Shown here one piece after another: positions 11,534 to 27,845 of a DNA stretch of 64,000 nucleotides. The stretch is taken from the NCBI GenBank assembly GCA_016185185.1, contig JACPOD010000013.1, forward strand, positions 1-64,000. The letters are read 5' to 3'. A model generated the notes under the pieces. It was not told where the DNA came from. It worked only from the letters and a program-made list of their open reading frames with translations, and ran no database searches. Every line of letters starts with the position of its first letter. Position 1 is the stretch's first letter. Position numbers and translations under genes: made by a program. The stretch comes from Sphingobacteriales bacterium (GTDB taxonomy: Bacteria > Bacteroidota > Bacteroidia > Chitinophagales > Chitinophagaceae).

Positions 11534-13705
11534 TCATTTCAGTGAGGCTTGTGCCGTTTTTGATTTTTGCCCGCCTTTAATATCCTTACCAATACGTTGC
11601 AGGTAAGCAATCAATGCCACTATTTCTTTCTTCTCAGGATTTGAAATACCTTCTACGGTCATCAGTTGTTTTACTTTACTGTCAGTTTTTAAACCAAAAG
11701 AAATTTCTTTTGCCTGGGTTTCTAATGCAGTATTGGCAATTTGATCGTAACCTTTTTCATATGGTACACCTAATGTTTGCATAGCCCTTATTTTACCGGG
11801 AGTGGTTGAGATATCCAGATCATTTTGATATAGCCAGGGATATCTTGGCATGATACTTTTATCTGAAACCTGTCTTGGATCAAACATGTGCATGAAATGC
11901 CAGCTATCGGGATTCTTTCCGCCTTCTCTCGCTAAATCCGGACCAGTGCGTTTAGAACCCCACTGGAATGGATGATCATACACAAACTCACCGGCTTTAC
12001 TGTATTCACCATATCTTGCTACCTCATCCCGGAAAGGACGTATCATTTGTGAGTGGCAGGTATAACAACCTTCTCTTATATAAATATCCCGTCCCTGTAA
12101 TTCCAGTGGCGTATATGGTTTAACAGAAGCAATAGTTGGGATATTTGATTTCACCAGGAAGGTTGGGATCAATTCAATTAATCCGCCAATGGCTACTACA
12201 ATCAAACTTATTACCAGCATTTGCATGGGTTTTCTTTCAATAACACGGTGCCAGTATTCTTTTGCATGGCTGTGTGCTTTTTCCAATGGCGCTGCTTCTG
12301 CTGCTTCATCAGCAATAAAACTTCCCTGCTTTACCGTTTTGTATAAATTATACACCATAAAAAAGGCACCTATTAAATAAAGTGTACCACCAATACTACG
12401 GGTGATATACATAGGGATGATTTGTGTAACGGTTTCTAAAAAGTTGGGATATTGTAAGGTGCCGTCTTCTGTAAATTGTTTCCACATTAAACTCTGTGTA
12501 AAACCAGCCCAGTATAAAGGAATTGCATACAATACAATTCCAATGGTTCCCAACCAGAAATGATTAGTAGCTAATTTTTTTGAATACAATGGAGTATTGA
12601 ACATTTTTGGAATGAGATAGTATAACATACCAAAAGCCATAAATCCATTCCATCCTAACCCACCTATGTGTACGTGTCCAATAATCCAGTCAGTAAAGTG
12701 AGCTATAGCGTTTACATTTTTAAGGGAAAGCATCGGTCCTTCAAACGTACTCATACCATAACAGGTAATGGCTACCACAAAAAATTTCAATACGGGTTCT
12801 TCTCTTACTTTATCCCATGCACCACGTAAAGTGAATAAACCATTCAGCATACCACCCCAGCTTGGTGCAATGAGCATAACAGAAAATACTACGCCGAGTG
12901 ATTGTGCCCAGTCCGGCAAGGCGGTGTATAATAAATGGTGTGGCCCGGCCCAGATGTATAAAAATATTAATGCCCAGAAGTGAATGATGGAAAGACGATA
13001 GGAATATACAGGGCGATTGGCTGCCTTTGGAAGGAAATAATACATCAAGCCTAAAATAGGAGTGGTTAAAAAGAAAGCTACTGCGTTATGACCATACCAC
13101 CACTGCACTAATGCATCCTGCACGCCGGCATACCAGCTGTAACTCTTAAATAAGTTAACCGGAATTTCAATGGAGTTAACAATATGTAACATTGCCACAG
13201 TGATCCATGTAGCGATGTAGAACCAAATGGCTACATAGATATGTGATTCCCTGCGCTTGATGATAGTACCAAACATATTGATACCAAATACTACCCATAT
13301 AACTGTGATTAAAATATCAATAGGCCATTCGAGTTCAGCATATTCTTTTCCGGTGGTCATACCAAAGAAAAGTGTTAATGCGGCCAATACAATGATAGAC
13401 TGCCAGCCCCAGAAATGGATCTTGCTCAGCAGGTCGCTGAACATACGGGCTTTACATAAACGCTGTAGCGAATAATAAATGCCGGTAAACATACAGTTAC
13501 CAACAAAAGCAAAGATCACGGCATTGGTGTGAATAGGACGAAGCCTGCCAAAAGTGGTACCTGCATAGTTTAAGCTGGCAGCGGGAGCATAAAACTGTAT
13601 GGCTACCCACAAACCGGCCAGCATACCAACAATACCCCAAAGAACAGTTGCATAGGCAAAGGCCCTTACAATCTTGTTGTCGTAATAGAATTTTTCTACT
13701 TGCAT
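11534..13705 (-). CDS. ccoNO: Fused cbb3 oxidase subunits I and II (CcoN-CcoO)
   Basis: CcoN motifs (HTNAVIFAFVGN, VQWWYGHNAVAFFLTTP, WIIGHVHIGGLGWNGFMAFGMLYYLIP) followed by CcoO (GRDIYIREGCYTCHSQMIRPFRDEVARYGEYSKAGEFVYDHPFQWGSKRTGPDLAREG). Confidence 0.96.
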   Translation of the reverse strand: MQVEKFYYDNKIVRAFAYATVLWGIVGMLAGLWVAIQFYAPAASLNYAGTTFGRLRPIHTNAVIFAFVGNCMFTGIYYSLQRLCKARMFSDLLSKIHFWGWQSIIVLAALTLFFGMTTGKEYAELEWPIDILITVIWVVFGINMFGTIIKRRESHIYVAIWFYIATWITVAMLHIVNSIEIPVNLFKSYSWYAGVQDALVQWWYGHNAVAFFLTTPILGLMYYFLPKAANRPVYSYRLSIIHFWALIFLYIWAGPHHLLYTALPDWAQSLGVVFSVMLIAPSWGGMLNGLFTLRGAWDKVREEPVLKFFVVAITCYGMSTFEGPMLSLKNVNAIAHFTDWIIGHVHIGGLGWNGFMAFGMLYYLIPKMFNTPLYSKKLATNHFWLGTIGIVLYAIPLYWAGFTQSLMWKQFTEDGTLQYPNFLETVTQIIPMYITRSIGGTLYLIGAFFMVYNLYKTVKQGSFIADEAAEAAPLEKAHSHAKEYWHRVIERKPMQMLVISLIVVAIGGLIELIPTFLVKSNIPTIASVKPYTPLELQGRDIYIREGCYTCHSQMIRPFRDEVARYGEYSKAGEFVYDHPFQWGSKRTGPDLAREGGKNPDSWHFMHMFDPRQVSDKSIMPRYPWLYQNDLDISTTPGKIRAMQTLGVPYEKGYDQIANTALETQAKEISFGLKTDSKVKQLMTVEGISNPEKKEIVALIAYLQRIGKDIKGGQKSKTAQASLK

Positions 13706-13786: not shown

Positions 13787-13936
13787 TTATTCAGGTGGGG
13801 AGTCTTCAAAAAGAATCCTGCGGGGAGGGGAGTAATCATCATCAAACTGGCCTTTTTTAACGCTCCATATGAAGGCGGCTAAAAACAATGCGGCAACAGA
13901 TATACTGGCCAGTAATAAAACTATTATTACACTCAT
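13787..13936 (-). CDS. ccoS: CcoS-like cbb3 oxidase maturation protein, 49 aa (below the ORF-track cutoff)
   Basis: My translation: MSVIIVLLLASISVAALFLAAFIWSVKKGQFDDDYSPPRRILFEDSPPE*; typical CcoS with FDD motif. Confidence 0.92.
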   Translation of the reverse strand: MSVIIVLLLASISVAALFLAAFIWSVKKGQFDDDYSPPRRILFEDSPPE

Positions 13937-14015
13937 ATTTCTCCTTTCCGTTTTTTAAAGGCGTAAAAATATTGGGCGGACTGTGACAGTGAGATGACAG
14001 AACTCATTGGGGGGA

Positions 14016-14029
14016 GTGATTTTTATCAA
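14016..14029 (-). promoter_or_regulatory. FNR/FixK-like box TTGATAAAAATCAC upstream of ccoS-ccoNO; -7-like TATTTTTA at 13964..13971
   Basis: One mismatch to TTGAT-N4-ATCAA; 55 bp centre-to-centre from the -7-like element. Confidence 0.75.
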
Positions 14030-14052: not shown

Positions 14053-16446
14053 CTAAAGTTTCAACCATCTTGCCGCCAAACTACTGCTTCCAAAAGTGAG
14101 CAGTATAATACTGATGGAACTGGATGGCATTAAGATGGCCGCTATCATGGGGGATAGTACCCCTTGCAAAGCAAAGAATAACCCAATGATATTATAAACG
14201 ATGGAGAGAATGAAACTCGCCATCACAATTTGTTTATTGGCACGGCACAATTGAATGAAGCGGGTGAGTTTGGATAATTGTGCTGCTTCAAGGATGGCAT
14301 CGCTGGCAGGAGTGAAATTGTTGGTGTTTTCTGTTAAGGCAATACCCACATTACTTTGTTTTAAGGCGCCGGCATCGTTCAGCCCGTCGCCAATCATCAT
14401 TACATTTTCATGTTTCGTTTGTAACTGCTGAATGTAACTGAGTTTATCAGCCGGGGATTGTTCAAACAATACATTTGTTTTTAACCCCATCAGGTTTTGC
14501 AGGTTTTCTTTTTCTGCCGGGCCGTCGCCAGAAATAACAGACAAATCAAATTGCTTCTTTAAATCACTCACCAGTGCCGGCAATGTTTCCCGGTAATGAT
14601 TTTGAAAACGGAAATATCCCAGCGGTTTGTTTTCAACGGACACATACACCCTGGTGCCTTCATCCGGCTTTGTGAATTTGCCTTTAATAAAACGTTTGGA
14701 ACCGAGTGCCACCAGTTCACCATTTACAAAACCTTCAATACCTTCTCCCTTTACTTCACTAAAACCAATCACTTCAAATTTAGTATTGCGTTTAAGGTAA
14801 GTGGTCAAAGCTTTGCTCAATGGATGTGTTGATTGTGCTGCTAAAGTGCCAACTAATTGTTCCTGGTCTTTTGTAAGTAGTGTACCTTCATACACAATAT
14901 CCTGGTGATGTGTATTGGTCAATGTACCAGTTTTGTCAAATACAATATGACTAATGCCGGCCATATCTTCAATAGCCTGGGCATTGCGCAGATAAAATTT
15001 GTTACGGGCAAGAATGGTTAAAATATTTCCATTGGTAAAACTGTTGCTTAGTAACAAAGCACAGGGACAAGCAACGATTAAAACAGTAGTGATCACATTC
15101 CATGCTTTATGACTATCATAAAAAGACCAGTAAACGGCCCCAATTAATGCTACACTTAAAACGATATAAGTAAAGTAGCGGCTCAACCCCTGCACAAATG
15201 ACTGGCTTTTTTCTTCGGTTGCCGTTTGTTCATCTTTATTCCACAACCTGGTTAAATAGCTCTGGGCTACTTCTTTCATTACAAGGACTTCAATGGTTCC
15301 TCCGGTTTGTTTTCCACCGGCATAGATAAACTCACCCGTATCTTTCATTACCGGTAATGATTCACCCGTTACAAAACTATAATCAATAAATGCCTTGCCT
15401 TTGGTGAGAATGCCATCCGTAGGTATCAGCTCTTCATTATGTATTAACAGCGTATCGTTGAGTTTAATATCCGGTAATGCCACAGGAACTTCTTCTTTAT
15501 TTTTTATAACCGTTACCGCAACAGGGAAATAGGAAGTATAATCTCTCTCAAAAGATAACTGCTGATGGGTTTTTTGCTGTAAGATCCGCCCTGCCAGCAT
15601 AAAAAATACAATCCCTGTCATCGAATCAAAATATCCGGCGCCTGTTCCGCTCAATACTTCATAAGCACTGCGGACGAAAGTCATTAGTATGGCCAGTGCA
15701 ATAGGTGCATCAATATTTAGAAATTTATGCTTTAAACTTTTCCATGCCGATTCATAAAAAGGGAGTGCACTGTATAATAAAACCGGTAATGATAATATGA
15801 AATTGAGTGTGCGGAACACACCCTGCAGGCTTTTTTCTGCTGATTCTAATCCCAAATATTCAGGGAAACTCATGAGCATGATATTGGCAAAACAAAACCC
15901 TGCAACACCTAATTGATAAATCAACGTTTTATTTACTCCGGGTTTGGCCTGTTTTAAATCACTCAGGCTGATGTAAGGCTCGTAACCAATAGAGGTAAGC
16001 AGTTCGGCAACTTTTCTTAAGCTGGTTTCTTTAAAATTAAAACGAATGGCTACTTCTTTACGGGTAAAATTTACTTTGGAAGCGATTACACCTTTATTCA
16101 GCTTATGCAAATTCTCCAGCAGGTACAGGCAGGAGCTACAGTGCATTTGCGGTAAATAAAAAGTAATATGAATTTGCGAGTCATCTTTAAAAGAGATGAG
16201 TTGTTGTTCAATCTTCTGGTCATCTAAAAAAGCAAACTTATCCTTACGAACTGAAATGCGCTGACTGATGCCGGGATTTTCGTTGAGATTATAATATTCG
16301 CAAAGGCCATTTTTATTGATGAGCTGGTAAACCATCTTGCATCCTTCGCAGCAAAAATGGTTATCCTCCAGTACAATTGTGGTGGTGATGCAATCTTCCC
16401 CGCAGTGGGTGCACTGTAATTTTTTCTCCGTAGCTGGTTGCGGCAT
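14053..16446 (-). CDS. ccoI: Heavy-metal P-type ATPase of the FixI/CcoI type
   Basis: N-terminal CTHCGEDC/CCEGCKMVYQLI, MHCSSCLYLLENL HMA, CPCALLLS, DKTGTLTNT, GDGLNDAGAL. Confidence 0.95.
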   Translation of the reverse strand: MPQPATEKKLQCTHCGEDCITTTIVLEDNHFCCEGCKMVYQLINKNGLCEYYNLNENPGISQRISVRKDKFAFLDDQKIEQQLISFKDDSQIHITFYLPQMHCSSCLYLLENLHKLNKGVIASKVNFTRKEVAIRFNFKETSLRKVAELLTSIGYEPYISLSDLKQAKPGVNKTLIYQLGVAGFCFANIMLMSFPEYLGLESAEKSLQGVFRTLNFILSLPVLLYSALPFYESAWKSLKHKFLNIDAPIALAILMTFVRSAYEVLSGTGAGYFDSMTGIVFFMLAGRILQQKTHQQLSFERDYTSYFPVAVTVIKNKEEVPVALPDIKLNDTLLIHNEELIPTDGILTKGKAFIDYSFVTGESLPVMKDTGEFIYAGGKQTGGTIEVLVMKEVAQSYLTRLWNKDEQTATEEKSQSFVQGLSRYFTYIVLSVALIGAVYWSFYDSHKAWNVITTVLIVACPCALLLSNSFTNGNILTILARNKFYLRNAQAIEDMAGISHIVFDKTGTLTNTHHQDIVYEGTLLTKDQEQLVGTLAAQSTHPLSKALTTYLKRNTKFEVIGFSEVKGEGIEGFVNGELVALGSKRFIKGKFTKPDEGTRVYVSVENKPLGYFRFQNHYRETLPALVSDLKKQFDLSVISGDGPAEKENLQNLMGLKTNVLFEQSPADKLSYIQQLQTKHENVMMIGDGLNDAGALKQSNVGIALTENTNNFTPASDAILEAAQLSKLTRFIQLCRANKQIVMASFILSIVYNIIGLFFALQGVLSPMIAAILMPSSSISIILLTFGSSSLAARWLKL

Positions 16447-16513
16447 AGTAAGAATTGGGTACTAAAGTAGCCGTCTCCCTGCTTTTGAGTATTGAGATTT
16501 CTCAGCCGGCGTA

Positions 16514-16527
16514 TTGATAAGCATCAG
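16514..16527. promoter_or_regulatory. FNR/FixK-like box TTGATAAGCATCAG between ccoI and the kinase gene; -7-like TACTTTAG for ccoI at 16462..16469
   Basis: One mismatch to TTGAT-N4-ATCAA; 55 bp centre-to-centre from the ccoI -7-like element. Confidence 0.72.
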
Positions 16528-16597: not shown

Positions 16598-18154
16598 ATG
16601 TATCAATTCAGCAAAACAAATATTCTTGGTTTCAGCCTGTTTGTGTTTGCCGTCACAGCATGGCTGGAGTTTTGTTTCCCCGACTTTGCTTTTTTTGACG
16701 GAGGGCTGCTCACGGTTGTGTTGCTCACCATTTTTCTTAAAGAAAATTATTACACTTATATTTTTGGCGCACTGAGTTTTCTATTTGTCTTTGGCACTTA
16801 TTTTCTTGATCATAATCTTACTCCCACACAGGTTATGTTTCAGCATTTATTTTCCATGTGCCTGATTGCAGGGGCTGTTATGCTGGTGATTTTTGTAAAA
16901 AGAATAGCGAGAGATAAAGATTCGGAAGAGAGACAAATTAATGCGCTTTTTCATAACACCACCGAGGGAATCATCCTTGCTAATAAAACCGGCGAAATTG
17001 TGCTTGTCAATCCTGCCGCCGAAAGAATGTTTGGTTATGATAAAGAAGAATTGCTTGGCAGAAAAGTGGAAGAACTGATACCGCAACGCTATGTGCCTAA
17101 GCATGAGAACTACCGTCACGGTTTTCATCAGCATCCGCAAAGCCGTCAAATGGGCCATGGTCGTGATTTATATGCACGACGCAAAGATGAAAGAGAGTTT
17201 CCAGTTGAAATCAGTTTGAGTTATTATCAGCAGAAAAAAGAATTCTACGTTATTGCCTTTATAGTGGATATTACGGTGCGAAAAGAAGCAGAGAAGAAAT
17301 TACTGGAGCAAAAATCACAACTGGAAAGAATCACTGCCGATGTTAAAAAACTCAATGCAGAGCTGGAAAATAAAGTAGAAGAACGAACCCTCATCTTAAA
17401 AGAAGCCTTACAGGAACTGGAAAGATCACAACAAGAATTAAGCGAAGCTCTGGAAAAAGAAAAGGAACTGAGTGAAATAAAGTCAAGGTTTGTATCTATG
17501 GCTTCGCATGAATTTCGTACACCATTAAGCACTGTATTATCTTCAGCCGCCATATTAGGAAAATATACGCAGACAGATGACCAGGATAAAAGGGAAAGAC
17601 ATATTAATAAGATAAAAGACTCCGTAAAACATCTGAATGAACTGCTGGAAGACTTTTTGAATTTGGGCAAACTGGAAGAAGGAAAAATAACAGCAGACTT
17701 TGCTTATTTTGAAGCCAAGGATTTTTTGCAGGATATAGTGGATGAAATGAAACCGATAGTAAAACCTGATCAGCAAATTGAGTTGAAAGTAACAGAAGGC
17801 AGCGGCTTTACAACCGATAAACGCTTGCTGAAAAATATCATGATTAACCTTCTGGGTAATGCTGCCAAATTTTCAAAAGAAGGAGATAGCATTGATGTGA
17901 TGGCCTGTATTAAAGATGAGTATATGGAAGTGGCAGTAAAAGATAATGGCATTGGCATTTCCAAAGAAGACCAGCAGCATTTGTTCAGCAGTTTCTTCCG
18001 TGGAAGAAATGCAGAAAATATACAGGGAACCGGTTTAGGATTGCATATAGTAAGCCGATACCTGCAATTGCTGGGCGGCGATGTAAAAATTGACAGTGAA
18101 TTAGGCAAGGGAACAACAATCACCATAACTTTACCAAACAAGAAAAATATATAG
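16598..18154 (+). CDS. Membrane PAS-domain sensor histidine kinase
   Basis: N-terminal TM segments, PAS (LFHNTTEGIILANKTGEIVLVNPAAERMFGYDKEELLG), HisKA (MASHEFRTPLSTVLSSAAIL), HATPase (NLLGNAAKFS, VKDNGIGI, GTGLGLHIV). Confidence 0.95.
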   Translation: MYQFSKTNILGFSLFVFAVTAWLEFCFPDFAFFDGGLLTVVLLTIFLKENYYTYIFGALSFLFVFGTYFLDHNLTPTQVMFQHLFSMCLIAGAVMLVIFVKRIARDKDSEERQINALFHNTTEGIILANKTGEIVLVNPAAERMFGYDKEELLGRKVEELIPQRYVPKHENYRHGFHQHPQSRQMGHGRDLYARRKDEREFPVEISLSYYQQKKEFYVIAFIVDITVRKEAEKKLLEQKSQLERITADVKKLNAELENKVEERTLILKEALQELERSQQELSEALEKEKELSEIKSRFVSMASHEFRTPLSTVLSSAAILGKYTQTDDQDKRERHINKIKDSVKHLNELLEDFLNLGKLEEGKITADFAYFEAKDFLQDIVDEMKPIVKPDQQIELKVTEGSGFTTDKRLLKNIMINLLGNAAKFSKEGDSIDVMACIKDEYMEVAVKDNGIGISKEDQQHLFSSFFRGRNAENIQGTGLGLHIVSRYLQLLGGDVKIDSELGKGTTITITLPNKKNI

Positions 18155-18155
18155 C

Positions 18156-19214
18156 ATGCACAGCATTTTAGTTATTGATGATAACAATGATATCAGGGAA
18201 AATACGGCTGAAATACTTTCTTTGGCCGGGTATAAAACTTATACAGGCGAAAATGGTAAACGGGGAGTTGAAATTGCAATTAAAGAAAAACCCTCTATCA
18301 TCATTTGTGATATTATGATGCCGGAGCTGGATGGTTATGGTGTGTTGCATCTCTTAAAAAAGAATCCGGAGACAGAAAATATTCCTTTTATTTTCTTGAC
18401 CGCTAAAACGGAAAGAACCGATTTCCGTAAGGGCATGGAAATGGGGGCGGATGATTATATCACCAAACCTTTTGATGACCTTGAATTGCTGCGGGCCATT
18501 GAAATACGTTTACGTAAACTGGATATTCTTCAAAATAAATATTCTCCCGGTGAGCAGGGCGCTAATGAGTTTATGAAAGAGTTGAAAGGGCATGGGCTAA
18601 TTAATATGCAGCTGGAAAATTATGATTCAGAAGAATTATCAAAAAAGCAAACGTTGTATACCGAAGGTAAAAGGCCCAAATATCTTTATTACTTGAAGAA
18701 GGGGAAAATAAAAACCTTTAAGGTACATGATGATGGGAAAGAATATATAACCAATCTTTACAGCGAAGGTGATTTTATCGGTTACCTCGCTTTGCTGGAA
18801 AGCCGCAGTTATGATGATACTTCCGAAGTGCTGGAAGAAGCAGAAGTGGTAATGGTGCCCAGCGATGATTTTTTAAATGCGGTGTATAATGATATGGCCA
18901 TTGCCGGTAAATTCATCCGCCTTATTGCCAATGATGTAAAAGAAAAGGAAGAAAGGTTACTGCATCTTGCTTATGATTCATTAAGAAAAAGGGTGGCCAA
19001 AGCATTAGTGGACATCAATGCAAAATTCAATAAGGACAGAGCCGATAATAAATCCATTGATATTTCCAGGGAAGATATTGCCCAATACATAGGTACGGCA
19101 ACCGAATCTTTAATAAGAACTCTCAGTGATTTTAAATCGGAAAAACTGATTGAGATTAAAGAGGGGAAGATAAAGATTATTAACCTGGAGAAGTTGAGCA
19201 GTTTGTTATATTAG
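18156..19214 (+). CDS. Receiver domain fused to a CRP/FNR-type regulator
   Basis: REC (LVIDDNNDIRENTAEIL, ICDIMMPELDGYG, KPFDD) then cNMP-like beta-roll and HTH (ISREDIAQYIGTATESLIRTLSDFKSEKLIEI). Confidence 0.94.
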   Translation: MHSILVIDDNNDIRENTAEILSLAGYKTYTGENGKRGVEIAIKEKPSIIICDIMMPELDGYGVLHLLKKNPETENIPFIFLTAKTERTDFRKGMEMGADDYITKPFDDLELLRAIEIRLRKLDILQNKYSPGEQGANEFMKELKGHGLINMQLENYDSEELSKKQTLYTEGKRPKYLYYLKKGKIKTFKVHDDGKEYITNLYSEGDFIGYLALLESRSYDDTSEVLEEAEVVMVPSDDFLNAVYNDMAIAGKFIRLIANDVKEKEERLLHLAYDSLRKRVAKALVDINAKFNKDRADNKSIDISREDIAQYIGTATESLIRTLSDFKSEKLIEIKEGKIKIINLEKLSSLLY

Positions 19215-19335: not shown

Positions 19336-19755
19336 TCAATCCGGCTGGTCCCGGTTTAAATCAAAATCACTTTTTGATTCTTCTTTTGGTTTACCCGTGG
19401 TTATTTCTTTGCCGTGTTCGTTTTGTTGTTTCAGGGTCCAGTTATCGGTCATAGTGGTTTCTAACCAAAGGTTACCACTTTTACGGAAGATCTGGATGGT
19501 AAGCCCAAACTTATCCATAAAAGTATTTTCCAACTCTTTTACTTTGGTATTATCTGAAATTTCTATTTCAGCCGCTTCTTTCTTTTTCCATATTTCCCCA
19601 ATGGTGCTGCTGGCCGGCAACAATTTGTTTAAGGCATACATTTTTTCCACTACAGTTCCGTTACGAAAGAACTCCATTTTTAAAAAGGGAAACAGGTTAT
19701 TAAAGGCAAACTGCAAATCCCTTACCGACATGGTATCTTTTATCAGTAATTTCAT
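19336..19755 (-). CDS. Hypothetical protein downstream of ric
   Basis: MKLLIKDTMSVRDLQFAFNNLFPFLKMEFF...; start moved to 19755 because the ORF-track start overlaps the regulatory box. Confidence 0.6.
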   Translation of the reverse strand: MKLLIKDTMSVRDLQFAFNNLFPFLKMEFFRNGTVVEKMYALNKLLPASSTIGEIWKKKEAAEIEISDNTKVKELENTFMDKFGLTIQIFRKSGNLWLETTMTDNWTLKQQNEHGKEITTGKPKEESKSDFDLNRDQPD

Positions 19756-19834
19756 AATATACTTCCCCCACAGGGTTGTAAACAAAATTATCTTCCTGCC
19801 CTGCCTGTTCAACTGATATATACTAACAAGCGTA

Positions 19835-19848
19835 CTGATTTTTATCAA
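19835..19848 (-). promoter_or_regulatory. FNR/FixK-like box TTGATAAAAATCAG upstream of 19336..19755; -7 TAATTTTG at 19783..19790
   Basis: One mismatch to consensus; perfect TAnnTTTG exactly 55 bp away. Confidence 0.75.
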
Positions 19849-19868: not shown

Positions 19869-20603
19869 TCAATTTCCCACGGTTTGTTTTAAGCGTTCCA
19901 TCAAATCAACAGCTTTTGGAAAGAGTAAATAATTTTCTAAATGCACATGCTGGTGCAGGTCGGCTTCAAAAGCCTGCAACGAGGCAAAACTTAAACGGTA
20001 AGTGGTGCAGGCATCAGACGGCGGGGTGTAGTTATTGGTCAATATTCTTATTTCTTCCATCAGTTCACCGGCATGTTCGTGTTCCTGTTCCATCATACTT
20101 ATTGGAGCCGTGATATAAGTGAGGTTGCGGCCAATAGCATGGGCTCCTTCTTTTTCCAGTGCTTCTAATTCTTTTATTCTTGGAAACAGCACTAATTCTT
20201 CTTTCTTCATGTGATGCTCCATCTCTTCTTTTACTTCATGAAAAAGGCTGAATACTTTCAGTATTTCAGGATGCCGTTCGCCATGTTTGGAAGCCACTCT
20301 TTGCAGCCAGGCAAATAATTGTGGTAATTCATTTAGTACATAGGCGTGATGGGTGTTAACGATATAATCAATCAATGCAGAAACACTATACTTATCAAAA
20401 TCAACAACAGGATTACCACCGGCTATCACTTCTTCCAGCACAGCTACTACTTCATCTACCGGTACATGTGTTTCTTCACAGGCTTGTTGCAGGGAACGTT
20501 TTCCTTTGCAGCAAAAATCAAGATGGTATTTTTCAAATACAGAAGCGGTGCGGAAATTGGATTTAACGATTTTTGCTAAGCTTTCATTTGCCAAGTTGTT
20601 CAT
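19869..20603 (-). CDS. ric: Iron-sulfur cluster repair di-iron protein (Ric/ScdA/YtfE)
   Basis: N-terminal DUF542 (FEKYHLDFCCKGKRSLQQAC), hemerythrin-like His/Glu motifs (HHAYV, HMKKEELVLFPRI, EHEHAGELMEEI, HLENYLLFPKA). Confidence 0.95.
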   Translation of the reverse strand: MNNLANESLAKIVKSNFRTASVFEKYHLDFCCKGKRSLQQACEETHVPVDEVVAVLEEVIAGGNPVVDFDKYSVSALIDYIVNTHHAYVLNELPQLFAWLQRVASKHGERHPEILKVFSLFHEVKEEMEHHMKKEELVLFPRIKELEALEKEGAHAIGRNLTYITAPISMMEQEHEHAGELMEEIRILTNNYTPPSDACTTYRLSFASLQAFEADLHQHVHLENYLLFPKAVDLMERLKQTVGN

Positions 20604-20621
20604 ACAATATTTTTTTAGTGA

Positions 20622-21389
20622 TTATAAATCTTTCTTTTTAAAATAGCGGACGGCTACCCATACGGGAATTATTATCCATAGTAGCATTACGCTGGTAACT
20701 AAGGCCATACCGGCTGTGCTGCCAAAGAAATCTTTGTATAAAGCGCCGGTATAACCCATCAGTGCACTTACATCCATTTTTAACATGATGAAAATGCGGC
20801 CAAGGTCAAGCGGGTTAAGGAAGGAGAGTGCCAATGTTACTTTTTCCAATGGGTAATCGCTAAAGCCAAACAGGATTAATAAAATCAGCCCATCATATAT
20901 CAGTGCAAAATAAAACCATACTAATAATACCGAACCAATACCTCTTGCTTTATCCCTTGCTTTAACAGAAACGGCAAAAGCCAGTGAAGTAAATATCATG
21001 GTTAATGCAAGCCCTGTCAGTATCATAGTAATTCCGGTATCGGTAGGAGAGAAGATTAACACAGGAATACCGGCGCCAATTAAAAAAGCTGCTAATAAAG
21101 AAACAGTGACACCTGCATATTCTGCTATGATGATGCGGGTGCGGCTCATTGGTTGCGATAACATCAGCTCAATAAATTCATAAGAATTGTAATAATGAAT
21201 GGTGCTGAATACCAGGCTGATTAATGGTAATACAATCAAAATGATATTCAGTAAACTTAATAACGCTTTGCCGCTGTTTTCTTCCATACGAAACATGCTG
21301 AAAGAAACTGTCAGTAAAAAGAGCGTGTAAGCAATTACAATTTTACTTCTTACAATATCATATAAAATATAACGGGTGAGCTTTAACAT
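20622..21389 (-). CDS. nosY: ABC transporter permease NosY
   Basis: ABC-2-like membrane protein directly after nosF in the nos order. Confidence 0.88.
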   Translation of the reverse strand: MLKLTRYILYDIVRSKIVIAYTLFLLTVSFSMFRMEENSGKALLSLLNIILIVLPLISLVFSTIHYYNSYEFIELMLSQPMSRTRIIIAEYAGVTVSLLAAFLIGAGIPVLIFSPTDTGITMILTGLALTMIFTSLAFAVSVKARDKARGIGSVLLVWFYFALIYDGLILLILFGFSDYPLEKVTLALSFLNPLDLGRIFIMLKMDVSALMGYTGALYKDFFGSTAGMALVTSVMLLWIIIPVWVAVRYFKKKDL

Positions 21390-21392
21390 GAT

Positions 21393-22160
21393 TTAAATTA
21401 TTTTATCGCCTGCACTTACATGAAATACTTTATCTATCCAGTTGTTACCCGGTTGTTCGCCTTTCATAATCCGGGCAATGGCCTTGCTTATTTTTATTTC
21501 GCCTGTTTCTTCCTGTAAGGTTTCTGCTTCTTTCAGGAAGATGAGTTTACCTTCCTGCATATACATTACATGTGTAGTGAATTCTTCTAAATCACTTAAT
21601 ATATGTGAGGTGATGAGGATAAGTTTGTTTTTCTTTTTCTCTGCAATGATTTTCTCTTTCAGTATTTCAGAAGATAAAGGGTCAAGACCGGCAGTTGGCT
21701 CATCTAAAATCAAAATATCCGGGTTAAAAAGAAACGCCAGGGCGGCACTTACTTTTTGCCTCGTACCACCACTGAGCGTACGCATGGGTTTTTCGAATAT
21801 TTTTTCCAGTTCATATTTTTTTAATAGCTCTTCATCCAGCACCCTGTCTTTTGCGTTGCGGATATCCTTCATCATGGTAAATAGTTGACCAATCTTCATG
21901 TTATCAGGATAGCGGCCAATCTGCGGCATATATCCAATATTACTGCGGTAGGAAGGATCTCCGTTAATTTGTATGTTGTTTACAAATATTTTCCCGCTGT
22001 CTGCTTTTATCATTCCTAATATAGACTTAATCAAAGTTGTTTTGCCTGAGCCGTTAGGTCCAATCAATGAAACAACCTGTCCACTATTGAAGATGGCATT
22101 GATATCATCCAGTGCCCGGAGTTTTTTGAATCGCTTGCTGATGTGTTCAATACGAATCAT
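21393..22160 (-). CDS. nosF: ABC transporter ATP-binding protein NosF
   Basis: Walker A GPNGSGKTTL, LSGGTRQKV, ILDEPTAGLDP; in nos operon. Confidence 0.9.
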   Translation of the reverse strand: MIRIEHISKRFKKLRALDDINAIFNSGQVVSLIGPNGSGKTTLIKSILGMIKADSGKIFVNNIQINGDPSYRSNIGYMPQIGRYPDNMKIGQLFTMMKDIRNAKDRVLDEELLKKYELEKIFEKPMRTLSGGTRQKVSAALAFLFNPDILILDEPTAGLDPLSSEILKEKIIAEKKKNKLILITSHILSDLEEFTTHVMYMQEGKLIFLKEAETLQEETGEIKISKAIARIMKGEQPGNNWIDKVFHVSAGDKII

Positions 22161-23383
22161 AATGTAAACGCTTTTATAGATGGTTTTGTGTCTGCTAAGT
22201 TTTCCGGTGTTAAGCTGGGTATAGCTTTCTCTGCTTTGTCTAATAAGGAAACAATAAAGCTTCTGAGTAAAATCAAAGTGCTGGGATTTTGCTCACTAAT
22301 CATACTGTACATGCTTACGGGATGATATGGAATATCTCCTTTCCCATCTTTATTCATATCATAGCCTTCGTATTTATCCCAGTAGTTATTATCAAAGTTG
22401 TTAAGTACTAAGGAACCGTTTGTTCCTACATCAAAACTGTTTTGAATAAAATTATTTTCGTGGAAATTATTATCGTTACAGCTGGCTTGTATTTTAACAG
22501 CCCAGCCGTTTTCTTTAAAAATGTTTTTGTTGATTTCAATGCGGCTGGTTCCTTCCAGGTGAAGGGCTACTGTGTTTTTAAAAAATGTATTGCCGCTTAT
22601 ATAACTGTCGCTGATATCTTTTAGTAAAATGCCGTAAGCAGAGGGGCCCCAGTTTTGTTCAAAATGGTTGCCCTGCATAGTAACTTTATTAGAATACATT
22701 ACTGCTACGCCGGCGCCATTATTTTTAAAAGTGTTGGATTGATAAACATCATCATTAGAGAACATAAAGTGAATGCCATAGCGAATATTTAATTCGCTAA
22801 AATTATTTCTGACGGTAGTGAAGGTTACAAACTCGAAGTAAATACCATCACGGTGTCCCTGGATATGATTGTTTTCAATTAAAGCATGATTGCTTTTCCA
22901 GAGATGAATGCCATTACCTGTTAACTGTTCGGATTTTGGACTGCCTTTTATAGTGTTGTTGCGTACAACTGCATATGAAGTATTGGAAAGATGAATGGCA
23001 AAGTAAGCGTTAATGATAGTGTTGTTTTCAATAGTTACATTATTGGCATCAATTACTTTAATGGAAGCATAATCATTCATGGCAGAATAGCCGGAATATT
23101 GGAAGCTGATTCCTTTAATGGTGATGTTGTTTCCGCTTACGGTAAATATTTCGTATTTATTATCTCCGTCGAGTACAGGATTGCTTTGCCCGATGATAGT
23201 GATTGTTTTTTGAATGATGATGTTGCCTTCTTTATACAATCCTTTTGTGATAATAATAGTATCGCCATCTTTAGCTGAAGCAATTGCTTTTTTTATCGAG
23301 ACTGCCGGGCTGGTTGTAATAGTGCGGGAATAGCAGTTATATGCAGATAATAGAAATAACAATATGGTAATTCTCCTTTTCAA
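22157..23383 (-). CDS. nosD: Periplasmic copper-binding beta-helix protein NosD
   Basis: Right-handed beta-helix repeats (NGIHLWKSNHALIENNHIQGHRDGIYFEF, RYGIHFMFSNDDVYQSN, GAGVAVMYSN) typical of NosD. Confidence 0.94.
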   Translation of the reverse strand: MKRRITILLFLLSAYNCYSRTITTSPAVSIKKAIASAKDGDTIIITKGLYKEGNIIIQKTITIIGQSNPVLDGDNKYEIFTVSGNNITIKGISFQYSGYSAMNDYASIKVIDANNVTIENNTIINAYFAIHLSNTSYAVVRNNTIKGSPKSEQLTGNGIHLWKSNHALIENNHIQGHRDGIYFEFVTFTTVRNNFSELNIRYGIHFMFSNDDVYQSNTFKNNGAGVAVMYSNKVTMQGNHFEQNWGPSAYGILLKDISDSYISGNTFFKNTVALHLEGTSRIEINKNIFKENGWAVKIQASCNDNNFHENNFIQNSFDVGTNGSLVLNNFDNNYWDKYEGYDMNKDGKGDIPYHPVSMYSMISEQNPSTLILLRSFIVSLLDKAEKAIPSLTPENLADTKPSIKAFTL

Positions 23384-23462
23384 AATATTTGGTTTCTTGT
23401 TTTAAAGCAGGTGAATAAAGTTGGTTTTGTTGGTTTCTTCATTCATCAGGCGGCAAACTGTT

Positions 23463-24482
23463 CTATTGCAGTTTACTGTACACTTCATCCCAATGCATCA
23501 CTTTGCCATTACCATCACTGTTCATTTTATATGCTTCGGCCTGTGAAGCGAAAGCTGCTGCATTGCTGTTCATTGGTGTTTTAAGGGCAGTGCTTACAAA
23601 AAAATGAGCTTTATCCGCTTCAATAAAATCGTTTGCTTTATTATAATTAAGAAATATTTTTTTGCTGATGTCTTTTTCATCTATACTGCCAGACTTTAAA
23701 AATCGAACCATACAGATGACATCATCAAACATATACACTTTGCCTTTTTTAGTAACTACTTCGCCACCAAATTTTGAGTCAACAAAACCCATTTTGCAAG
23801 TGTAACAATCATCTTTACCTAAGGTAATAGGGTGCGGATTAACGGAGCAGGAACTAACTAAAAGCATCAAACCTGCAATAGCAGCTGTTGCTGTTGAAAC
23901 GGGTAATTTCTTTTTTGCTTTATACCAGGCAATAAAAAATATTAAAAAAGCAATAATACCGGATATAACCACAATCCATCCACCAATATCGGGAGTTGAA
24001 TAAGCATCAAAGTTTAATAAACGTTTATGACCAAGTAACGGAGGCTGATAACCCATGCCTGGTACTTTGATTGGAGCATCGGGATTGAGGTTATGGCCAT
24101 AGTTGTATCCCCATTTCCAGAAATCATACATAGCCAATGCACCGCCAATAATGGAAAGCAACAAGTAAGTAACTAATATTTTCCTGTTACCGGTTATTGC
24201 GGCCATAAGACCTACCACAATAAAGAAGCCAACAATGTAAATGAGATATGAAAATTCTGGAAACATTTCAACGCTGATATGTTTCATTCCAATGTAGTGG
24301 TTTAGGCCATTAATGATGTCTACATCACCGGTTAACTTAGTTAACCATATTTTCATGGTCAGCCCTTCTGGATATTGCGGTGCAAACAAATCAATACGCC
24401 ACACTGGTACGAAATAAGTTCCTAGTAAGGCAAGTGAAGCAAAGGCCATCAGTATCCTCGATGTAGTACTAAGCTTTTTCAT
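23463..24482 (-). CDS. nosL: NosL copper-chaperone domain fused to an N-terminal multi-TM region
   Basis: C-terminal LLVSSCSVNPHPITLGKDDCYTCKMGFVDSKFGGEVVTKKGKVYMFDDVICM NosL motif; about 200 aa N-terminal TM region. Confidence 0.88.
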   Translation of the reverse strand: MKKLSTTSRILMAFASLALLGTYFVPVWRIDLFAPQYPEGLTMKIWLTKLTGDVDIINGLNHYIGMKHISVEMFPEFSYLIYIVGFFIVVGLMAAITGNRKILVTYLLLSIIGGALAMYDFWKWGYNYGHNLNPDAPIKVPGMGYQPPLLGHKRLLNFDAYSTPDIGGWIVVISGIIAFLIFFIAWYKAKKKLPVSTATAAIAGLMLLVSSCSVNPHPITLGKDDCYTCKMGFVDSKFGGEVVTKKGKVYMFDDVICMVRFLKSGSIDEKDISKKIFLNYNKANDFIEADKAHFFVSTALKTPMNSNAAAFASQAEAYKMNSDGNGKVMHWDEVYSKLQ

Positions 24483-24492
24483 TTTAATTTTT

Positions 24493-24582
24493 TATAACAC
24501 TGATTGAAGGAGCCTACACGAATGAGATTTGCAGTTGTTGAATTTTAATTCGTGCCATTCATGTAATCTGTTTAATCAGTGC
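24493..24582. repeat. About 90-nt imperfect palindrome (CACTGATT...CACGAATGAG ... CATTCATGTAATCTGTTTAATCAGTG)
   Basis: Outer arms CACTGATT/AATCAGTG with inner complementary ACGAATG/CATTCAT; intergenic between nosL and the fasciclin gene. Confidence 0.6.
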
Positions 24583-25149
24583 TTATTTTTTTGCAGGGGG
24601 GGGTAATAATACGCCGTCAATTACATGAATGATACCATTGCTGGCTGGAATTGATGCTACCACAGTTGTTGTACCATTTACCATTACTTTTCCATCTTTC
24701 ACACTTAAAGTAATGTTGTCTCCATTGGCCATATTAATTACCTGTCCGTCCTGCATATTCTCTGCTTTATATACTGCCACTGCTACGTGGTATTGTAATA
24801 TATTTTGCAGGTCTGCTTTTTTATCATCTTTCATCAAGCCATCTACTGTACCGGCAGGCAGTTTATCAAATGCTGCGTTGGTTGGAGCAAACACGGTAAA
24901 CGGACCAGCGTTTGAAAGTGATGTTACCAGTTCAGCTTGTTTTAACGCAGCCACTAATGTGGTATGGTCTTTTGAACCTACTGCAATTTTTACAATATCT
25001 TTTTGTGATTCATCATCTTTTACTGCTTCTTGTCCACCAGCAGCAGGAGCGGTTGTGTTATCTGTTGTTTTGGTTTCAGTGGGGGCATTATTACAGGAAA
25101 ACATTGATATCATTAACAATAATGCAAACAGTTTATTCAACTTTTTCAT
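24583..25149 (-). CDS. Fasciclin-domain lipoprotein inside the nos operon
   Basis: SMFSCN lipobox; FAS1 motif FTVFAPTNAAFDKLPAGTVDGLM and NGIIHVIDGVLLPP. Confidence 0.93.
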   Translation of the reverse strand: MKKLNKLFALLLMISMFSCNNAPTETKTTDNTTAPAAGGQEAVKDDESQKDIVKIAVGSKDHTTLVAALKQAELVTSLSNAGPFTVFAPTNAAFDKLPAGTVDGLMKDDKKADLQNILQYHVAVAVYKAENMQDGQVINMANGDNITLSVKDGKVMVNGTTTVVASIPASNGIIHVIDGVLLPPPAKK

Positions 25150-25169
25150 AACAATCGTTTTAGTATGAT

Positions 25170-25202
25170 AAAGGCAACTCCTTTTAACAGGAGCTGCCTT
25201 TG
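25170..25202. other. Strong hairpin between nosZ and the fasciclin gene (AAAGGCAaCTCCT ... AGGAGcTGCCTTT)
   Basis: 12 of 13 complementary arm positions; the T-run follows on + strand while flanking genes are on - strand. Confidence 0.6.
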
Positions 25203-25208
25203 ATTTTT

Positions 25209-27200
25209 TTATTTAGATGGTGCTGGTGCAGGTTCTGGATTTGTTTTTCCGGTACTGAATGTAATAGGTACATTAGAACCGGCTGCACTTACACGGATAT
25301 AACCCTGCATTTCCTGGTGCAGTGCAGAACAGAAGTCTGTGCAATACATTGGATATACACCTGGTTTTTCCGGTTTCCATGCCAGTGTTTGTGTTTCACC
25401 AGGCATAATGAGTAATTCAGCATTATTAGCGCCTTTTACCGCAAAGCCATGCGGAACGTCCCAATCCTGTTCCAGGTTAGTAACGTGGAAGTAAACCACA
25501 TCACCCATTTTCACTCCTTCAATATTATCAGGAGTAAAGTGCGAACGAATGGCAGTCATATAAACATGCACTTCGTTTCCTTTACGTTCTACTCTTGCAT
25601 TTTTATCACCAATAGCTGCATAAGGGTTGGCGTTCTCTTCAATCTTATAAATCTTCTGCGAATTCTTCATTATCAAATCAGCAGGTATTGCTTCAGCATA
25701 GTGTGGTTCCCCAATGGTTGGGAAATCAAGAATGAGTTTCATCTTATCACCACTGATATCATACATCTGTGCACTTTGTGCTAATTCAGGACCGGTTGGT
25801 AAATAGCGGTCTTTAGTGATTTTGTTGTAAGCAATCAGGTATTTACCCCATGGTTTTTTAGTAGGACCACCGGGAACACTCAGGTGACCAACAGAATAGT
25901 AAGTAGGCACACGGTCCAACACTTTCAAATCTTTAACACTCCATTTAACCACTTCAGATGAAACAAAGAAAGAAGTATAGGCATTACCATTGGCATCAAA
26001 TTCTGTATGCAAGGGCCCGAGACCTGGTTTTTGCACTTCACCATGTAATACGGCATCATATTTTAATACGGGGATTCCTTCATAAGCACCATCAAAATTT
26101 TTACTGGCAATTGCTTGTTGAATTTTAGTAAAAGAGAAAACAGGAATTACAGCAGCGAGTTTACCACTACCAACAATGTATTCACCAGTAGGATCAGTAT
26201 CACAACCGTGAGGAGATTTTGGACAAGGCATAAAGTAAACCATATCGGGACAATCTTTAGGATCTAAAACAGTTACTTCATTTTCGATAGTGGAAGTGGC
26301 CATATGTTTTTTCTCATCATACACGTTGTGTGCATATTTAACTGATTGTTTTTGCCCTTTACCGGCAGCTAAATATTCTTCTGCTTTTTTCCAGTTAACA
26401 CAAAGAATAAAATCCTTGTCTTTTTGAGAAGCATTTACTTCCAGTAACGTGTTTGCTCTTTCGGAGTTATAACAACTGAAGAACATCCATCCGTGAGATT
26501 TTCCTTTACCGGCTCTAGCCAGGTCGAAGTTTACACCAGGCAATAAAATCTGGAAATTAATTTTCAGGCCACCTGTATTTTTATCAACAGCGATAAAACT
26601 TACCGTACCACGGAAATTTTGTTTGTAAGTATTAATAGGAACATCACCATTGCTGTTATCCATCGGCACACTAAACCTTGTTCCCGCTACTACATACTCT
26701 GAGTTTTCAGTAATAAAGGGAGAAGAGTGGTTACCGGCACTGTTAGGTATTTCAATAATTTCTGCAGTGCGGAATGTTTTTAAATCAACACGGGCAATAC
26801 GTGGGGTATTGTTACCATTACCAAATACCCAGCGTCCGTCCTGAACGCCATCTGTTTCAGACAATGCAATGTGGTGCAAATCGTCCCAGGGTACAAAACC
26901 ATGAGAGGTGTTGAGCATAGCTTTTGTTTCTTCACTATATCCATAACCTTTTTCTGGGTCAACCGAGAATACAGGGATTACACGGAACAATCTTCCTGAA
27001 GGAATGCCATACACACTCATTTGTCCGCTGAAACCACCGGAAACAAAATTGTAAAATTCATCGTACTTACCGGGGGCTACATACGTCTTCTGTGCAGCAT
27101 CGCCGCTCACAGCCGATTCAGCTCCTTTCGGTTTACATGCAGGGGCTAAAAAGCTGATCGTTATAATAGCCAGCAGCAGTTTGGATAAAACCTTTTTCAT
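25209..27200 (-). CDS. nosZ: Nitrous-oxide reductase, Sec/lipoprotein-type (clade II-like)
   Basis: MKKVLSKLLLAIITISFLAPACK (no Tat motif); SPHGCDTDPTGEYIVGSGKL; CuA region MYCTDFCSALHQEMQGYIRV. Confidence 0.95.
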   Translation of the reverse strand: MKKVLSKLLLAIITISFLAPACKPKGAESAVSGDAAQKTYVAPGKYDEFYNFVSGGFSGQMSVYGIPSGRLFRVIPVFSVDPEKGYGYSEETKAMLNTSHGFVPWDDLHHIALSETDGVQDGRWVFGNGNNTPRIARVDLKTFRTAEIIEIPNSAGNHSSPFITENSEYVVAGTRFSVPMDNSNGDVPINTYKQNFRGTVSFIAVDKNTGGLKINFQILLPGVNFDLARAGKGKSHGWMFFSCYNSERANTLLEVNASQKDKDFILCVNWKKAEEYLAAGKGQKQSVKYAHNVYDEKKHMATSTIENEVTVLDPKDCPDMVYFMPCPKSPHGCDTDPTGEYIVGSGKLAAVIPVFSFTKIQQAIASKNFDGAYEGIPVLKYDAVLHGEVQKPGLGPLHTEFDANGNAYTSFFVSSEVVKWSVKDLKVLDRVPTYYSVGHLSVPGGPTKKPWGKYLIAYNKITKDRYLPTGPELAQSAQMYDISGDKMKLILDFPTIGEPHYAEAIPADLIMKNSQKIYKIEENANPYAAIGDKNARVERKGNEVHVYMTAIRSHFTPDNIEGVKMGDVVYFHVTNLEQDWDVPHGFAVKGANNAELLIMPGETQTLAWKPEKPGVYPMYCTDFCSALHQEMQGYIRVSAAGSNVPITFSTGKTNPEPAPAPSK

Positions 27201-27230
27201 AAATAAATATTTAGTGATTTATGGTGAGAA

Positions 27231-27725
27231 TTATTTTACACCGTCGTTTTTGCGCATGAACTCATATACATGTCTTGCATCATCATCTGTAAGACTTTGA
27301 TTGGGCATACGTACTAAGCAGGTTTCCAGCAAAGCCTGGGCTTGCGGATCGTTAGCTAGCATCTCATCTGTATTAGTAGCAAAATTCATAACCCACTCAG
27401 GGGTTCTCCTGGAGGTAACACCTTTCCAGCCGGGGCCAACCAGTTTTTCTTCAGTAAGGCGGTGGCAGCTCATACATTTAGTATCGTAGATCTTACTTCC
27501 CGCATCTGCCATGGCTTTATCCAGGGTTGCTGGAATATCCACTTTGGTAAATTTTCCAATACCTTTTTTATCATCCTTTTCCTTTTGAGATTTGTCAGTA
27601 GTTGCTGCTACAGGGGCAGGTGTTGTGTCAGTAGTTTTCTTTTCAGCACCGCCACCACAGGCTATTAGTGTGAAGGTTAAAGTGCCCATGAAAAGAGCAG
27701 AAGCTGTCAATAGTTTAAGTTTCAT
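27231..27725 (-). CDS. Cytochrome c lipoprotein, first gene of nos operon
   Basis: MKLKLLTASALFMGTLTFTLIACGGG lipobox; YDTKCMSCHRLTEEKLVGPGW haem-c motif. Confidence 0.92.
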   Translation of the reverse strand: MKLKLLTASALFMGTLTFTLIACGGGAEKKTTDTTPAPVAATTDKSQKEKDDKKGIGKFTKVDIPATLDKAMADAGSKIYDTKCMSCHRLTEEKLVGPGWKGVTSRRTPEWVMNFATNTDEMLANDPQAQALLETCLVRMPNQSLTDDDARHVYEFMRKNDGVK

Positions 27726-27831
27726 GTGTTTAAAAATTTTAAATTGAATGATAAAAGGATGCGGACATCTTTTATGGTGTAAAAGTATTTTGGCAGGCGA
27801 TGTATGCGGATGAGAAGCCTCAGTTAAGTTG

Positions 27832-27845
27832 CTGATATTTATCAA
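27832..27845 (-). promoter_or_regulatory. FNR/FixK-like box TTGATAAATATCAG upstream of the nos operon; -7-like TACTTTTA at 27780..27787
   Basis: One mismatch to consensus; 55 bp centre-to-centre spacing. Confidence 0.75.

Follow-up and report, generated by a model that had tools for sequence, protein, structure and literature searches.

A sensor histidine kinase and a receiver-CRP/FNR fusion protein, encoded side by side, probably form a two-protein microaerobic switch acting on tandem-element promoters of the cco and nos operons. All coordinates are positions in the window, the 64,000-nt stretch of contig JACPOD010000013.1 (assembly GCA_016185185.1, Sphingobacteriales bacterium) that was analysed. 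Computation established the domain anatomy, the catalytic residues, the geometry of the tandem promoters and a class-wide association of regulator, element and cco.

The initial annotation had placed the two genes at 16598-18154 and 18156-19214, and both open reading frames are present at exactly these positions, with the kinase TAG and the regulator ATG one base apart. As annotated, the pair lies inside a cco/nos region. One flank carries ccoG, ccoH(FixH), ccoP, fused ccoNO, ccoI and ccoS, and the other nosD/nosL/nosZ together with a RIC/YtfE di-iron protein. The features are collected in Table 1. A fasciclin-domain gene (24583-25149, minus strand) separates nosZ from nosL and occupies the same place in the nos cluster of eight relatives (L014, L017, L018, L021, L022, L028, L034 and L036).

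Table 1. Features of the kinase/fusion locus and of its predicted targets.
Feature	Position	Strand	Basis
ccoNO fusion, predicted target operon	11534..13705	-	
ccoS, 48 aa, first gene after first tandem box	13790..13936	-	
-7 element TATTTTTA, 23 nt after proximal palindrome (ccoS operon)	13964..13971	-	
Tandem box of ccoS-ccoNO-ccoP-ccoG-ccoH-ccoX operon, score 42.9	13995..14028	-	
ccoI copper P-type ATPase, predicted target	14053..16446	-	
-7-like element TACTTTAG (ccoI)	16462..16469	-	
Tandem box facing ccoI, in the gap between it and the kinase gene, score 34.7	16493..16526	-	
Sensor histidine kinase: hydrophobic segments, PAS, HisKA, HATPase_c	16598..18154	+	Pfam
Receiver-CRP/FNR fusion regulator, 352 aa	18156..19214	+	Pfam
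Receiver domain, residues 4-115; phospho-acceptor D52 at 18309-18311; D9, T82, K104 conserved	18165..18500	+	
cNMP-binding beta-roll, residues 160-242	18633..18881	+	
Crp winged HTH, residues 278-349	18987..19202	+	
Recognition helix GTATESLIRTLSDFK, residues 313-327	19092-19136	+	
Small protein, about 140 aa, without Pfam match	19336..19756	-	
-7 element TAATTTTG, exact TAnnTTTG (small gene)	19783..19790	-	
Tandem box, imperfect proximal half, upstream of small gene, score 27.1	19814..19847	-	
Cytochrome c - nosZ - fasciclin - nosL - nosD - ABC genes - RIC/YtfE operon, predicted target	19869..27845	-	
-7 element TACTTTTA (nos operon)	27780..27787	-	
Tandem box heading the cytochrome c-nosZ-...-RIC operon, score 39.9	27811..27844	-	

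The kinase has the layout of FixL, that is PAS, HisKA and HATPase_c domains with a membrane anchor. About four hydrophobic segments lie in residues 7-105, and Pfam recognised PAS_9 (4e-16), HisKA (2e-14) and HATPase_c (1e-26), in agreement with the annotation as a PAS histidine kinase. Its further assignment as FixL-type was borne out by the single PAS domain (residues 113-226), which is of the FixL/DosP type. When this domain was compared by sequence with the PDB, the top 13 matches were heme PAS domains of DosP and FixL (1e-14 to 1e-11), with best E-values of 1e-14 for DosP and 1e-13 for FixL, better than for any other solved PAS. By alignment, both heme-PAS residues are present in the window kinase. 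The proximal heme His of DosP and FixL corresponds to H169, which is invariant in 59/59 orthologues, and R189, at the position of the distal O2-binding Arg, is kept in 25/63 orthologues, mostly close ones. We take these residues to be the equivalents of FixL H200 (proximal His) and R220 (distal Arg). In a small control on the fetched loci the His was found in 76/76 of the closest PAS domains and in 0/6 distant ones; the own genome yielded five PAS matches, too few for this control. The HisKA phospho-His, H304, is conserved in 67/67 sequences. Since the best matches of the PAS domain are DosP and FixL and H169 is invariant, heme-based gas sensing is our leading idea for this domain; the PAS subtype may carry the invariant His for reasons other than heme.

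In the partner protein a receiver and an FNR/FixK-type core are directly fused, as the annotation had claimed, with Pfam matches to Response_reg (2e-26), cNMP_binding (1e-17) and HTH_Crp_2 (1e-15). All catalytic residues of a response regulator are retained, namely the acid pocket (D8/E, D9), D52, T82 and K104. Among 82 relatives and paralogues, D9, D52 and K104 are conserved in 82/82 and T82 is T or S. The Glu and Arg pointed out earlier in the recognition helix, E317 and R321, are likewise invariant (82/82). The annotated lack of an N-terminal Cys cluster also holds, and the single Cys of the protein is C51 (18306-18308), which directly precedes the phospho-Asp D52 and is invariant (82/82). 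CD motifs are common in receivers; a redox role for C51 is possible. The cAMP-binding residues of CRP, E72 and R82, are not found in the fusion, where Y210 (78/82) stands at the E72 position and the R82 position has no Arg. The AlphaFold2 model of the fusion (pLDDT 83, pTM 0.56, 35 sequences) comprises the receiver, a short linker helix, the beta-roll, a 45-residue dimer helix (247-291) and the wHTH. Among the PDB matches listed for the fusion, by sequence or by fold, each covered the receiver or the CRP part and none covered both.

The annotation had also spoken of four boxes, against the background of the FixK site TTGAT-N4-ATCAA, and this part needed correction. The exact TTGAT-N4-ATCAA sequence occurs at 18 sites genome-wide and at none in the window, where the boxes are one-mismatch sites. 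Such lone boxes gave 11 matches in the window versus 5.9 expected, barely above chance. Because the exact box is absent and single palindromes are close to chance, the lone FixK box was dropped as the cis-element and replaced by a tandem. All four candidate boxes are one half of TGAT-N4-ATCA-N10-TGA-N6-TCA-N23-TAnnTTTG, and only in this pairing do they reach high significance. When TGA-N6-TCA palindromes in the window were paired, 22 bp was the only spacing that recurred, three times, each before a cco or nos unit; in the fourth tandem site one half is imperfect. Across the whole genome, the strict tandem was found seven times versus zero for the reversed pattern. With a matrix trained on relatives alone, the window contained exactly four strong sites (scores 27-43), all facing minus-strand operons, and the best score in 4 Mb of shuffled DNA was 15.6. 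Two of the four sites also score 13-21 in the opposite direction, as near-symmetric tandems should.

The same arrangement recurs in relatives. Across 80 related loci and the window, TGAT-N4-ATCA was paired with TGA-N6-TCA at 22 bp 71 times, while the 69 other palindrome spacings averaged 0.28. In 27/70 stacked sites TAnnTTT starts 23 nt downstream of the proximal palindrome, as compared with 3 for the next offset. We take TAnnTTTG to be the known -7 element of Bacteroidota. In E. coli class II promoters the activator site is centred at -41.5 and the first T of the -10 element lies at -12. The distance from the centre of the proximal palindrome to the first T of the -7 element is 29.5 bp, equal to the class II distance, which would place the distal palindrome at about -63.5. 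The predicted geometry thus equals class II (-41.5) plus -63.5 activation.

The matrix was built from exact sites of the same loci without the use of gene positions, and internal genes served as control. The element was found upstream of ccoNO in 27/33 cases, of ccoI in 21/26 and of the cytochrome gene heading nos in 5/8, and it preceded 0 of the internal cco/nos genes of the relatives. The small gene of about 140 aa recurs beside the fusion gene in relatives, where 29 loci could be tested for an upstream site; the tandem element precedes it in 9/29, and it is a predicted member of the regulon.

To assess how widespread the pair is, we surveyed 296 Bacteroidia genomes. The fusion is present in 145/296, and the kinase/fusion pair is widespread in Bacteroidia and not peculiar to its own genome. 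Both fusion and ccoN occur in 114 genomes, the fusion only in 31, ccoN only in 69 and neither in 82, a co-occurrence with p=6e-9 when kinship is ignored. In 31/91 genomes for which both positions were listed, the fusion lies within 15 kb of ccoN; about one such genome is expected by chance, given a span of 30 kb in a genome of roughly 4 Mb. The association with the high-affinity oxidase, on which the annotation had staked its circuit, was therefore found by both measures. Conversely, ccoN was not detectable in 31/145 fusion genomes, which argues that the duties of the fusion go beyond cco. A kinase adjoins the fusion in 59/80 loci. In seven loci (L012, L013, L022, L023, L027, L028 and L039) the fusion gene has no kinase as its neighbour, and a close relative of the window kinase is encoded some 9-10 kb off, on the other side of the cco operon.

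We infer phosphotransfer, a heme/O2 signal, occupancy of the element by the fusion and activation as the sign of control, as follows. The membrane-anchored kinase would sense O2, or another heme ligand, via its FixL/DosP-type PAS. Low O2 would relieve the PAS, and the kinase would then phosphorylate D52 of its partner. Once phosphorylated, the receiver may help the FNR-type core to dimerise or its dimers to contact each other, and two adjacent dimers would then occupy TGAT-N4-ATCA-N10-TGA-N6-TCA, one at about -63.5 and one at about -41.5. A class II contact would replace the -33 element and activate promoters that carry the Bacteroidota -7 element. The units predicted to be activated are ccoS-NO-P-G-H, ccoI, the small gene and the nos-RIC operon.

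The signal could be different. A kinase that senses NO or a redox signal instead of O2, and thereby serves mainly as a nitrosative/denitrification switch, would be in line with the nos operon and the RIC/YtfE repair gene among the predicted targets, with the invariance of C51 next to the phospho-Asp (82/82) and with the distal Arg of O2 sensors not being conserved in most of the distant kinase orthologues. However, the element most frequently precedes ccoNO and ccoI, and R189 is present in the window kinase and in nearly all close orthologues. We therefore consider this signal rather unlikely and keep O2 as the preferred input.

Next, we asked which regulator reads the element. Counts of the strict tandem cover 295 of the Bacteroidia genomes, without one that is rich in repeats, and ignore kinship; the genomes were grouped by the fusion and by Crp proteins like P0003, a class defined as any match to P0003 at 1e-20. 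P0003 itself is a Crp protein of the own genome (L091:4198-4902, C101) with an N-terminal CX2CX4CX5C, encoded between COX1-type oxidase genes. The tandem was present in 75/94 genomes with both, in 27/51 with the fusion and without P0003-like Crp, in 40/85 with P0003-like Crp and without the fusion, and in 4/65 with neither. The difference between fusion-only genomes and those with neither has p=2e-8, kinship ignored. Among the 183 genomes with ccoN, 170 carry at least one of the two, fusion or P0003-like Crp. As the element also occurs in fusion-less genomes, the fusion cannot be its only reader in Bacteroidia; the fusion as sole reader was rejected, and this led us to compare recognition helices.

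Among the nine cNMP-binding proteins found in the own genome, the C19 and C105 receiver fusions alone carry the helix GTATExxIR. In fusion-less genomes, the stand-alone regulators beside boxes carry an N-terminal CxxC and GTATETxIRLL or close variants, and all six box-linked stand-alone relatives (from six genomes that have the element and lack the fusion) have GTATExxIR. The recognition helix of P0003 is GTTKEQVSKTL. Since this differs from GTATExxIR, P0003 was downgraded as an Fe-S FNR rival, and the P0003-like class of the survey is only a proxy for FNR. The fusion core shares 33-36% of its residues with the box-linked stand-alone regulators and 26% or less with the other Crp proteins of the own genome except the C105 fusion, with 26% for P0003. 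At base -1 of the distal site, T was found in 13/37 fusion-only sites versus 1/34 fusion-less sites (p=7e-4), and the four window sites have T, C, T and T.

These data bear on a second alternative, in which a stand-alone Cys-bearing FNR-type regulator binds the element and the kinase/fusion pair has other targets or no more than a modulating role. It would explain the 40/85 genomes with P0003-like Crp and no fusion, as against 4/65 with neither, and the element before ccoN in nine genomes of the former group (G002, G026, G036, G067, G084, G101, G114, G138 and G193); moreover, the own genome has such a Cys-bearing Crp, P0003, near cytochrome oxidase genes. Yet it is the fusions, and not P0003, that share the GTATExxIR helix and the higher core identity with the box-linked regulators of other genomes, and three of the four window sites have the T at base -1 that is rare in fusion-less genomes. 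We regard this alternative as improbable. Based on the restriction of the helix in the own genome, the core identity and base -1, the two fusions are the best candidates for readers of the element there. At 81% completeness, the assembly could have missed a stand-alone regulator with the GTATExxIR helix.

The second kinase/fusion pair, at L090:8312-11007 (C105), has a double-PAS kinase and is unlinked to cco. We consider it very improbable that this pair chiefly uses the boxes and overlaps or competes with the window pair. Its fusion does share the GTATESLIRTLSDFK helix exactly and is 49% identical overall to the window fusion, but the pair is unlinked to cco/nos, its contig region is without the element (the best match has two mismatches), and the window pair alone lies within the cco/nos region. 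Either or both fusions may bind the element.

The classic oxygen circuit has three steps, FixL to FixJ to FixK, and the annotation had described the pair as a compressed form of it. The FixL-type kinase, the receiver-CRP/FNR fusion and the oxidase association support this description in part, whereas the lone FixK box gave way to the class II tandem. Like the FixL-FixJ-FixK systems of rhizobia and Caulobacter, the locus combines a membrane-anchored heme-type PAS kinase, predicted cco (fixNOQP/GHIS) targets and a final CRP/FNR-type regulator without an Fe-S cluster. Unlike them, it has no NarL-type FixJ, its receiver is fused to the CRP/FNR core, its predicted target is the 22-bp tandem and not a lone TTGAT-N4-ATCAA, and its host belongs to the phylum Bacteroidota. 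The fusion is not a FixJ (receiver with NarL/LuxR-type HTH), because its output is cNMP_binding plus HTH_Crp_2. With FixK (about 230 aa, no receiver) it shares the lack of a Cys cluster but not the domain layout, as it has an N-terminal receiver; its CRP/FNR core need not descend from rhizobial FixK. With FNR, FnrN and ANR it shares the CRP/FNR core, an E..R helix reading TGAT half-sites and the -41.5-equivalent class II position; it differs in lacking the Cys cluster, in its receiver input and in a tandem with a second predicted dimer at -63.5. The stand-alone Cys-bearing Crp/FNR proteins of Bacteroidia (GTATETxIR) have the same helix and the same tandem, often before ccoN, but an N-terminal CxxC segment instead of the receiver, and presumably no kinase partner. 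In Rhizobiaceae, the hFixL-FxkR-FixKf system similarly places a kinase/regulator pair upstream of a FixK-type protein; it has three proteins, and FxkR controls the fixKf gene (PMC4999443). Taken together, the window pair appears to be two-component control joined to a CRP/FNR activator. It would act as a shortcut from FixL to FixK, and its regulator is neither a FixJ, a FixK nor an FNR.

The circuit appears to be one of two class-wide versions, the other of which uses the stand-alone Cys-bearing regulator with the same helix. As that helix occurs in stand-alone regulators of genomes that have the element and lack the fusion, the sensor module appears to be swapped on a conserved promoter. Whether the cbb3 promoter across Bacteroidia is indeed a fixed tandem whose reader exchanges its sensor, either a Cys (probably Fe-S) module or a receiver with a heme-PAS kinase, we judge to be evenly balanced. 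Many genomes may hold both forms and thus two O2 inputs on one promoter. If true, evolution would have run a domain-swap experiment of its own here, with one-component control on one side and two-component control on the other.

How O2 governs high-affinity respiration and N2O reduction is well understood for Proteobacteria, and Bacteroidota include many nosZ-bearing N2O reducers. In the open-access literature we found no description of such O2 control for Bacteroidota and no study of the architecture or the tandem element in this phylum; an earlier description elsewhere is possible. The locus would provide a concrete circuit with a cis-code sufficiently exact for sequence-based prediction of regulons. 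The FixL to FixJ to FixK cascade would gain a one-step counterpart. How a receiver can switch on a CRP/FNR fold becomes testable as well; none of the solved structures found shows that.

Several minor observations were made along the way. A plasmid search for the fusion gave six distant matches; the five of the six that were listed are labelled only 'response regulator' or 'transcriptional regulator', and kinase relatives on plasmids are labelled 'PAS domain-containing sensor histidine kinase'. Genus g18 carries the fusion, yet hardly any exact copy of the element was found there; a GC-richer variant, which the exact pattern misses, stands upstream of ccoNO in this genus (L152:994-1060) and reads TGAC-N4-GTCA ... 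TGA-N6-TCA ... CACTTTCG. Genome G282 (family f56) contains about 100 matches to the tandem pattern and a similar count for the reversed control; these belong to a dispersed family of TGATAATTATCAAC repeats that has nothing to do with the promoter element.

The regulon of the own genome was sought by pattern only. Further candidate sites, among them those at divergent hemA/hemH, an MlaE operon and a DoxX region, scored lower than the window sites, and we regard them as tentative targets. A strict tandem (G000 contig C72:16969-17002, L003) lies between the divergent genes of hemA (glutamyl-tRNA reductase) and ferrochelatase, with a weak -7 element on both sides. Its position suggests that heme supply may be co-regulated with the predicted regulon.
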